DNA of 50,968 nt from an uncultured Bacteroidota bacterium. GTDB taxonomy: Bacteria > Bacteroidota > Bacteroidia > UKL13-3. The stretch's first letter is position 1, and every line of letters begins with the position of its first letter. The translations under genes and the position numbers were made by a program. Under the pieces are notes generated by a model, which was given only the letters and a program-made list of their open reading frames with translations, was not told the DNA's origin and did not search any database. Location of the stretch: NCBI GenBank assembly GCA_903901345.1, contig CAIUQQ010000335.1, positions 1 to 50,968 of the forward strand, given 5' to 3'. This document shows positions 41,111-44,412 of this stretch, one piece after another.

Positions 41111-42664
41111 TTATTTTGTTTCCAAAACAATAAAAGGAACGATCATCTCTTCTAAACTAATTCCTCCATGTTGGAACGAATCGTTGTAAAAATTTACATG
41201 GTAATTATAGTTATTTGGATAAACCATAAAATCATCGCCTTTAGCAAAAACCCAACTCGTACTCATGTTTTGCTTTGGTAAAAACACATCTGCAGGATTT
41301 TTAACTCCAAATAATTCATTGGCATTATAGCTTAAGTTTCTACCTTGTTTGTAACGTAAATTGGTACTTGTGTTTTTATCACCAATAATTTTTACCGGAT
41401 TTTTAACCCTTATTGAACCATGATCGGTGGTAATAATAATTCTTACTTTCTTTTGAGCTATTTTTTTAATGGCTTCAAATAATGGCGAATGTTCAAACCA
41501 ACTTGCGGTAATACTTCTATAAGCTGCTTCATCTTCGGCTAGCTCTTTCATTACATTCATTTCAGTTCGCACATGGCTTAGCATATCTACAAAATTATAT
41601 ACAATAACATTGAATTTATTGCTCATCAAATTAGAAACTGTATCGGCTAAATTTTTACCTGCTTGCAAATTGGTAACTTTGGTATAAGTAATTTTTTCTT
41701 TGTAACCCAAGCGCTGCATTTGCTTGTTTATAAACTCTTCTTCATATATATTTTTTCCTTCATCTTCCTCCTCATTTACCCAAAGATTTGGATACAATCT
41801 TTCAATTTCACTTGGTAACATTCCCGCAAAAAAACTGTTCCTAGCATAATGAGTGGTGGTAGGTAAAATGGTTAAATAAGTATCTTCACTAATTATATTG
41901 AAGTATTCAGTTAATTGGCTTTGAACCATTTTCCATTGATCGTACCTGAAATTATCAATTAAAATTAAAAAAGTAGGAATGTCTTTATCAATTACTGGCA
42001 TCAATTTTTTATTGATAACAGTATGGCTCATGGCTGGTGTTTTAGCATCAGGTTTTTTCAAGAAATTCACAAAGTTTTTCTCTATAAATTTCACCCAATC
42101 GTTATTGGCATCGCGTTTTTGCATCGCCAATATTTCGTCCATTCCTGTATCGCCACTTTTGGCTAGTTCCAGTTCCCAATACACTAATTTTTTGTATAAA
42201 TTTACCCAACTTTCATAGTCGTTTACATCATACAATTCCATGGCTATTTGCCTAAATTCTTGTTGATAATTTTGAGCCGTTTTTTCGGTAACCAATTGCT
42301 TGCTATCCAAAATACGTTTAAGCGATAATAAAATTTGGCTTGAGTTAACAGGTTTAATCAAATAATCAGCAATTTGATTGCCAATGGCATCTTCCATAAT
42401 ATGCTCTTCTTCACTTTTGGTAATCATTACTATTGGCACTTCAGGAGTAATAGCCTTTATTTGAACCAATGCTTCTAAACCACTGATTCCGGGCATGTTT
42501 TCATCTAAGAAAATAACATCATATCTCTTTAGTTTTACTGCTTCTACTGCATCTACGCCACTGGTAACTTTATCTACGGTATAACCTTTATTGGTCAGGT
42601 AAATAATATGTGGCTTTAATAAATCTATCTCATCATCGGCCCAAAGAATACTTGTATTGCTCAT
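41111..42664 (-). CDS. porX: PorX-type response regulator with PglZ (alkaline phosphatase superfamily) effector domain
   Basis: N-terminal receiver ILWADDEIDLLKPHIIYL...FLDENMPGISGLEAL; C-terminal PglZ region with FLILIDNFRYDQW and ITTDHGSIRV. Confidence 0.93.
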   Translation of the reverse strand: MSNTSILWADDEIDLLKPHIIYLTNKGYTVDKVTSGVDAVEAVKLKRYDVIFLDENMPGISGLEALVQIKAITPEVPIVMITKSEEEHIMEDAIGNQIADYLIKPVNSSQILLSLKRILDSKQLVTEKTAQNYQQEFRQIAMELYDVNDYESWVNLYKKLVYWELELAKSGDTGMDEILAMQKRDANNDWVKFIEKNFVNFLKKPDAKTPAMSHTVINKKLMPVIDKDIPTFLILIDNFRYDQWKMVQSQLTEYFNIISEDTYLTILPTTTHYARNSFFAGMLPSEIERLYPNLWVNEEEDEGKNIYEEEFINKQMQRLGYKEKITYTKVTNLQAGKNLADTVSNLMSNKFNVIVYNFVDMLSHVRTEMNVMKELAEDEAAYRSITASWFEHSPLFEAIKKIAQKKVRIIITTDHGSIRVKNPVKIIGDKNTSTNLRYKQGRNLSYNANELFGVKNPADVFLPKQNMSTSWVFAKGDDFMVYPNNYNYHVNFYNDSFQHGGISLEEMIVPFIVLETK

Positions 42665-42840
42665 TTATGTTTTTATTGTTTTTGCAAAGATTACTTGTTT
42701 ACTTGAATTTAAAAATTGTTTGTGATTTATTTACTGTTATGTTTATAAATGGTAATTATAACGTGGTTCTTGGTGTTTTAGTTTAATAATAATTGGAAAT
42801 AGACAATTGGCAATTAGTAAAGGGTGGATTTTATTTTGGT

Positions 42841-43008
42841 AACTTGTGCGCACAAGTTATGGTAAAACATGACAAACTATACAACTTGCGCATGCAAGTA
42901 ATGATATTCAAAGATATTTATCAGTACTTGCGGGCGCAAGAAGGGATAAACAACATTATTTATTACCATTTGCATATGCAAGGAGCTATAAAATTACAAA
43001 ACCAATTA
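42841..43008. repeat. Array of four palindromic sites with exact 42-bp period
   Basis: aacttgtgcgcacaagtt (42841), aacttgcgcatgcaagta (42883), tacttgcgggcgcaagaa (42925), catttgcatatgcaagga (42967). Confidence 0.92.
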
Positions 43009-43016
43009 ATACGTAG

Positions 43017-43038
43017 GGGCGGACCTTTGTGTCTGCCC
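43017..43038. repeat. Stem-loop GGGCGGAC-ctttgt-GTCTGCCC
   Basis: 8-bp stem with one G-T wobble. Confidence 0.8.
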
Positions 43039-43096
43039 TTAATTTTGAAACCAAAACAAATTCTCCAACAAATAAAATCAATTATTCAATTTTTAT

Positions 43097-43128
43097 AATC
43101 TTCCAATCTTGTAATCTTCCAATCTTCC
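43097..43128. repeat. Octamer-periodic tract aatcttcc
   Basis: aatcttcc/aatcttgt/aatcttcc/aatcttcc. Confidence 0.85.
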
Positions 43129-43185
43129 AAATCAACTAAATCTTCCAATTAACAATTCAACTCAAAAATAACCTATTTTTGAACC

Positions 43186-44412
43186 GTGAATTTATCCAAT
43201 AAAAAGAAAATAATCAACGATCCTGTTTATGGATTTGTAAATATACCTTTTGAACTTATTTACGATTTAATAGAACATTCGTGGTTTCAGCGTTTGCGCA
43301 GAATTAAGCAGTTAGGGCTTTCATATTTGGTTTATCCTGGCGCGCAACATACGCGTTTTCAGCATGTAATTGGTGCCATGAGTTTAACTTTTCAAGCGGT
43401 AGAAATTTTAAAAAGTAAGGGAATTGAAATTACAAATCATGAAGCCGAATCGGTTTGTGCAGCCATTTTATTGCACGACATGGGTCATGGTCCATTTAGC
43501 CATACTTTAGAAGGATTAATTATTGAAGATGTTCCTCATGAAGAAATTTCTTTGCGTTTTATGGAATTATTGAATGAACAATTTGAAGGTAAATTATCTA
43601 CTGCTATTGAAATATTCACCAATAAATATTCAAAAAAATTCTTACACCAATTGGTCTCTAGTCAGTTAGATATGGACAGATTGGATTATTTACGCAGAGA
43701 TAGTTTTTATTCTGGTGTACAAGAAGGAACAATTGGCCACGATAGAATAATAAATATGCTAAATGTGGTAAATGATGAATTGGTAATAGAAGAAAAAGGA
43801 ATTTATTCAGTTGAAAAGTTTTTAATAGCCCGCAGACTCATGTATTGGCAAGTTTATTTACACAAAACTGTGGTGGCTGCAGAGCAATTATTAATTAAAA
43901 TTATGGAGCGAGCAAAATTATTGGCTTATCAAAATGAGGAATTATTTGCTACTCCAGCTTTGCATTATTTTTTATATAATAAAATTGATAAAAAAACATT
44001 TTATAATAGCAATGAAGCCATAGAAAATTATGCTCTTTTGGATGATGATGATATTTTTACTTCCATAAAAGTTTGGTGTAATCATCATGATAAAATACTA
44101 AGCACGCTTTGCAAGATGCTTCGCAATAGAAAATTACCTAAAATAGTATTGCAAAATGCACCTTTTAATAAAACCACAGTTGAAAGTTACAAATTCATGG
44201 TTGCCGATAATTTAGAAATTACAATGGATGAAGCTAATTATTTTGTATACACCGATTCTGTTCAAAATAAAGCTTACAGCGCCAACAATTTCCATATAAA
44301 TATTTTATTCAAAAATGGTCAAGTGCTTGATATTGCTGATGCCAGCGACCAATACAATATTGATTCATTAACTAAATTAGTTACCAAATATTTTTTGTGT
44401 TTTATAAGATAA
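43186..44412 (+). CDS. HD-domain phosphohydrolase (dNTPase-like), GTG start
   Basis: FQRLRRIKQLGLSYLVYPGAQHTRFQHVIGAMSLT; LLHDMGHGPFSHTLE; DMDRLDYLRRDSF. Confidence 0.93.
   Translation: MNLSNKKKIINDPVYGFVNIPFELIYDLIEHSWFQRLRRIKQLGLSYLVYPGAQHTRFQHVIGAMSLTFQAVEILKSKGIEITNHEAESVCAAILLHDMGHGPFSHTLEGLIIEDVPHEEISLRFMELLNEQFEGKLSTAIEIFTNKYSKKFLHQLVSSQLDMDRLDYLRRDSFYSGVQEGTIGHDRIINMLNVVNDELVIEEKGIYSVEKFLIARRLMYWQVYLHKTVVAAEQLLIKIMERAKLLAYQNEELFATPALHYFLYNKIDKKTFYNSNEAIENYALLDDDDIFTSIKVWCNHHDKILSTLCKMLRNRKLPKIVLQNAPFNKTTVESYKFMVADNLEITMDEANYFVYTDSVQNKAYSANNFHINILFKNGQVLDIADASDQYNIDSLTKLVTKYFLCFIR

Follow-up and report, generated by a model that had tools for sequence, protein, structure and literature searches.

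On the F plasmid, the sopC repeats lie beside sopAB and are near-identical, spacers included, and the palindrome in each of them is bound by SopB, a ParB-type protein. In E. coli, the REP/BIME elements are bound by gyrase, IHF or Pol I. The former make up the centromere of the plasmid, with twelve repeats of 43 bp (PMC9178275), and the latter are short extragenic palindromes (PMC3733652). In Porphyromonas gingivalis, tandem direct repeats of 22, 23 and 41 nt have been described (BrickBuilt, MITE464/PgRS), and at least two kinds of these, the ones of 23 and 41 nt, form part of MITE-like elements (PMC4596501). Our search of open-licence papers for palindromic tandem repeats with a period of 21 or 42 bp in the Bacteroidota found none before BrickBuilt.

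The array described here lies in an intergenic region of the window (the whole stretch of DNA analysed, 50,968 nucleotides) and resembles each of these systems in part. Like sopC, it is a tandem array in which each unit spans about four helix turns and contains a single palindrome of roughly 16 bp, but its spacers have diverged and no adjacent par genes were found: when frames between 38 and 47 kb were scanned against Pfam, the genes identified (mutS2, porX, HD and an ECF sigma gene) included nothing par-like, the remaining frames there being read by eye only. Like REP/BIME, it consists of short extragenic palindromes in a cluster; REPs, however, are dispersed multi-copy sequence families, whereas the window array occurs once in its genome. 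The likeness to the P. gingivalis repeats is that of intergenic tandem arrays in the Bacteroidota with periods of about two or four helix turns, with long stem-loops predicted and with no established function (PMC4596501). BrickBuilt and PgRS differ from the window array in being multi-copy and MITE-like, with IS5-type terminal inverted repeats, whereas the window array is single-copy, has diverged spacers and has no such termini that could be found. CRISPR was set aside on anatomy (palindromes of 14–18 bp and diverged cores).

Table 1. Features of the array and of its surroundings (positions in the window).
Feature	Position	Strand	Description
Palindrome 1	42841-42858	.	AACTTGTGCGCACAAGTT, 18-bp, perfect; dyad 42849.5
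Palindrome 2	42884-42899	.	ACTTGCGCATGCAAGT; central 4 bp asymmetric; dyad 42891.5
Palindrome 3	42927-42940	.	CTTGCGGGCGCAAG; central 2 bp asymmetric; dyad 42933.5
Palindrome 4	42970-42981	.	TTGCATATGCAA, perfect; dyad 42975.5
Larger inverted repeat, sites 2 and 3 joined	42885-42940	.	22-nt arms, 86% complementary; mid-spacer dyad 42912.5
Spacer 3	42942-42966	.	Outer arms GATAAA / TTTAT around mid-spacer point 42954.5
Lineage-specific segment holding the array	42784-43009	.	226 bp between conserved ...TTTTAGT and ACGTAGGGG...
porX-type gene (receiver and PglZ domains)	41111-42664	-	Pfam; start-proximal region kept in congeners without the array
HD hydrolase gene (HD and HD_assoc_2)	43186-44412	+	Pfam

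The initial annotation had reported four palindromes with dyads exactly 42 bp apart; their sequence and coordinates were confirmed, all three dyad-to-dyad intervals being exactly 42 bp, i.e., four helix turns. Its description of the sites as symmetric holds fully for sites 1 and 4 but not for the centres of sites 2 and 3, which are mismatched (Table 1). The main dyad of the 42-bp unit is CTTGN6CAAG. A weaker dyad symmetry exists at the mid-spacer points, at an offset of 21 bp, where 21/45 pairs are complementary over the three spacers against 13.6 ± 2.9 (P = 0.01); this symmetry is carried by two of the three, spacers 2 and 3, and is strongest in the 22-nt inverted repeat between sites 2 and 3. 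TTTAT / ATAAA is mirrored about sites 3 and 4 as well.

Arrays were scored by the number of complementary pairs, at eight pairs per site over four sites, for any constant period between 18 and 100 bp. The window array is the top scorer of the 51-kb window, with 26/32 pairs against 23 for the runner-up, and the maximum reached in shuffled sequences was 25, both for the whole window (60 dinucleotide shuffles) and for the intergenic region (500 shuffles). When similarity between the cores was required too, an equal array occurred in 0/200 first-order Markov windows at any period between 20 and 120 bp. The window array is not a chance product.

The idea that helically phased dyads keep their cores and their spacing but not their spacers was borne out by these Markov windows and by the comparison between units: the cores are identical at 66/96 positions (69%, a mean of 11/16) as against 65/156 (42%) for the flanks (Fisher P = 3e-5). 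The flanks had been called unrelated, and this stands insofar as spacer identity is near random (a mean of 10.8/26 versus the 8.6 expected from composition), but not for units 3 and 4, which have 15/26 flank bases in common, nor for the weak mid-spacer symmetry in spacers 2 and 3. The affinity between units 3 and 4 speaks for a decayed minisatellite, in which a dyad-symmetric 42-bp unit was duplicated in tandem in this lineage and then drifted without function, its phase simply being inherited. However, because the cores are far better kept than the flanks, decay has not been uniform along the units; a symmetric T-A / C-G exchange in the stems of the cores (CTTGT..ACAAG vs CTTGC..GCAAG) also speaks against such drift.

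The array sits between two divergent genes, a position that had led to the suggestion that it regulates porX and that would suit an operator array for porX and/or the HD gene. It is, however, some 180–200 bp away from either start codon. The equivalent region in relatives was located via the HD protein and aligned using MAFFT with that of four congeners (G001, G002, G008 and G009) in which this protein is 93–96% identical. All four have kept the same gene-proximal ends of the intergenic region, including the conserved CCTATTTTTG directly before the HD start codon, which does not depend on the presence of the array, while a short T-rich run replaces the 226-bp segment and the array is absent. 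The alignment thus indicates that the segment with the array is either a gain in this lineage or was lost by all four congeners. Consequently, a conserved porX operator is unlikely, the proposal of porX regulation loses its footing, and an operator for either neighbour is improbable. PorX footprints on porT have been published (PMC8050853), without a consensus for comparison, and a PorX binding site was not retained as a candidate.

The 226-bp segment has no terminal inverted repeats beyond chance (the best 12-mer matches at 8/12, P = 0.50), and no copies of it were found among 57 relatives except for short low-complexity matches. Its lineage-specific character, together with the low-complexity repeats that adjoin it, fits the decayed minisatellite. 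Two further repeats occur nearby in the window: an imperfect palindrome, ACGTAGGGGCGGACCTTTGTGTCTGCCC, at 43010–43038, which is found at the equivalent site in the congeners, and a low-complexity intergenic repeat, AATCTTCCAAT in four copies, at 43097–43149, which varies among the congeners. A 27-bp tandem form of the former, AGACCTATGTGTCTGCCCAATACAAAA, is present in four copies elsewhere in the same genome (L346, 9065–9170).

A period of 42 bp also corresponds to 14 codons, and a 101-codon frame with a TTG start (42793–43098) is open through the array, so that the array might lie within a 14-residue protein repeat (LCAQV.., LRMQV.., LRAQE.., LHMQG..). This frame corresponds to no Pfam family, and none of its phage matches is above chance level. 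Moreover, the differences between the cores are not clustered at third positions, and stops occur within the Parabacteroides arrays described below; a coding origin is very improbable indeed. Another possibility is a run of transcribed RNA hairpins with a role in processing, termination or as a small RNA. Both strands fold better than shuffled sequences (z of −5.3 and −3.7), and one terminator-like stem is present on the − strand. Good folding is, however, expected of any palindrome array, and an RNA would have no evident use for an exact phase of 42 bp. A search of Rfam gave three hits, at chance level only, and promoters are not in excess over shuffles in a scan that does not cover Bacteroidota promoters. 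We consider such hairpins quite unlikely.

Another interpretation given in the initial annotation, that of a mobile dispersed repeat, found no support in a search for further copies. A pattern search across the whole genome found no second array of the window motif, and a motif-free scan of 663 kb of this 3.8-Mb genome found no other 42-bp palindrome array. Outside the array, the cores have no exact copies in the genome, where the few matches have 2 mismatches each. Tandem arrays number 27 in 336 kb of the genome, none of them with a period of 40–46 bp, and the window array is therefore isolated within its own genome, which again suits the decayed minisatellite. A perfect palindrome, TCCGTTAGCTAACGGA, is repeated at 77 bp near position 52 of another contig of this genome (L410, contig C35), at the contig end.

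The search was extended to the remaining 63 genomes of the order (one per species), and the gaps between sites were left free from 12 to 42 bp; the window motif array is absent from all of them. In 395 genomes of the class, the triple TTG-N6-CAA pattern has matches in 14 genomes. Among the matches listed, together with two further loci that were viewed (L251 and L253), only the window array looked like palindromes with diverged spacers, and the remaining matches among those listed had the look of coding repeats or of tandem repeats with near-identical units. Phage and plasmid collections contain no DNA match to the segment. In viral contigs, the window motif at 42 bp has two matches, on two contigs, which are apparently coding or exact repeats, and the Parabacteroides motif pair has none.

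This Parabacteroides motif was obtained by scanning GTDB species genomes for three TTG-N6-CAA sites spaced at 42 bp and then filtering for palindromic cores and dissimilar spacers. Among the matches listed, the clear parallel is Parabacteroides sp. An277 (L145). When gaps of 20–40 bp were allowed in An277, pairs of TTGANTACTCAA were found solely at 30-bp gaps, i.e., at the 42-bp period, at three loci, and a looser search at this fixed gap revealed additional units in register. Arranged in lines of 42 bp, the Parabacteroides arrays have five units each, with the core TTGASTASTCAA and a period of exactly 42 bp. Among the 39 genomes available for the genus, such arrays occur in one more, G464, where they are orthologous to those at a sigma-factor locus and at a hypothetical-gene locus (MAKQIRLFGM...) of An277. 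When 25 units of the two genomes are combined into a profile, each half reads approximately TGYRTTTATANNNATTGASTA, and a second dyad appears at an offset of 21 bp.

In a unit-by-unit comparison of An277 with G464, the cores are identical at 52/60 and 49/60 positions (82–87%) and the spacers at 84/150 and 80/150 (53–56%), and both 210-bp arrays align without gaps. The retention of the 42-bp phase between Parabacteroides species is suggestive of selection on the phasing itself but does not prove it, because the sequence outside the arrays is likewise almost ungapped in these alignments. The two arrays lie upstream of genes, the same ones in both species, as operators might; the arrays of An277 are, however, found between convergent as well as divergent and co-directed genes, and with all these orientations they are not the operators of one regulon, which also weighs against an operator at the porX/HD locus.

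The An277 arrays (L145, L304, L305 and L308) share with the window array the TTG-N6-CAA dyads, the exact 42-bp period, the diverged spacers and the intergenic location. They have five units, against four in the window, and a second dyad at 21 bp, which the window units show in part. They differ in their core, TTGASTASTCAA, in that one core is common to three loci of a single genome, and in a clear shared spacer profile. The window flanks are slightly closer to the Parabacteroides flank profile than shuffles are (P = 0.027, with a one-base shift allowed), a weak resemblance. Given this weakness, the different cores and the fact that a period of 42 bp was preset in the search, the kinship of the window array with those of Parabacteroides would be one of architecture only, and in this architectural sense the two appear to be of the same kind.

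In An277 (L369–L388, G437), Tandem Repeats Finder identified 60 distinct arrays over 361 kb, the contigs having in part been picked because they contain arrays. Their periods are concentrated at 20–23 bp (26 arrays) and 40–46 bp (28 arrays), which together account for 54/60, and the 28 arrays of 40–46 bp are dyad-symmetric, with a median z of 2.8. Most are intergenic according to approximate gene calls. Their units are locus-specific in sequence and are near-identical in some arrays and diverged in others (examples are L386 14654–14965, L371 8806–9033 and L388 18910–19100). Elsewhere, a congener of the window's genome (G005) has 8 tandem arrays in 400 kb and a family member (G029) 14 in 400 kb, with none at 40–46 bp in either. 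Other repeats were seen in passing. In Hymenobacter, TTGCATGTGCAA-like palindromes occur at 21-bp steps in intergenic DNA (L194 1000–1190 and L227 4280–4440); an Odoribacteraceae MAG has TTGGAGCTACAA / TTGTAGCTCCAA units in both orientations, again at 21-bp steps (L191 2752–3000); and G029 has an 80-bp tandem repeat of 11 near-identical copies, each with the perfect palindrome CCCGATAGCTATCGGG (L357 14092–14992).

That the units of the An277 arrays range through all degrees of divergence, beginning with near-identity, is a further point in favour of the decayed minisatellite. Set against the retention of the cores, it leaves this explanation somewhat doubtful, but the window array may be a relic that has decayed and no longer has a function. 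The initial annotation had regarded a lack of other phased copies and of conservation in sister strains as the mark of a chance or decayed repeat. The array is indeed species-specific; it is nevertheless not dismissed as chance, because of the statistics and because the architecture recurs elsewhere.

Our preferred reading, to which we give a probability of about 0.45, is that the array is a non-coding, lineage-specific array of phased dyads, of an intergenic kind found in some Bacteroidota, and that it most likely serves as a platform for a dimeric protein or is what is left of one. Each 42-bp unit would offer the main dyad CTTGN6CAAG and a partial second dyad 21 bp away, and a symmetric protein at each dyad would be presented on the same face of the helix every four turns. 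Such a platform, acting at the level of DNA and specific to neither neighbouring gene, might be used by a dimeric, self-associating DNA-binding protein of a nucleoid-associated, partition-like or topology-related type; both the binding and the type of protein are what we infer from the geometry.

A broader proposal is that some Bacteroidota possess locus-specific, sequence-diverse but geometrically uniform arrays of dyads, every 21 or 42 bp, which would constitute a general platform on the chromosome, recognised chiefly through symmetry and helical phase and less through sequence, with the window array as an outlying member from another family. As it stands, this proposal is unlikely to be correct. 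By itself, the single array in the window is a curiosity, and its worth is as a pointer to a wider pattern. If dyads that are unrelated in sequence have been kept at 21 or 42 bp throughout the Bacteroidota, a phylum that dominates the gut, this would mean an unrecognised geometric DNA code along with a protein that reads it. The P. gingivalis repeats described above (22, 23 and 41 nt), which so far have no established function, would, if this were true, be part of the same question.
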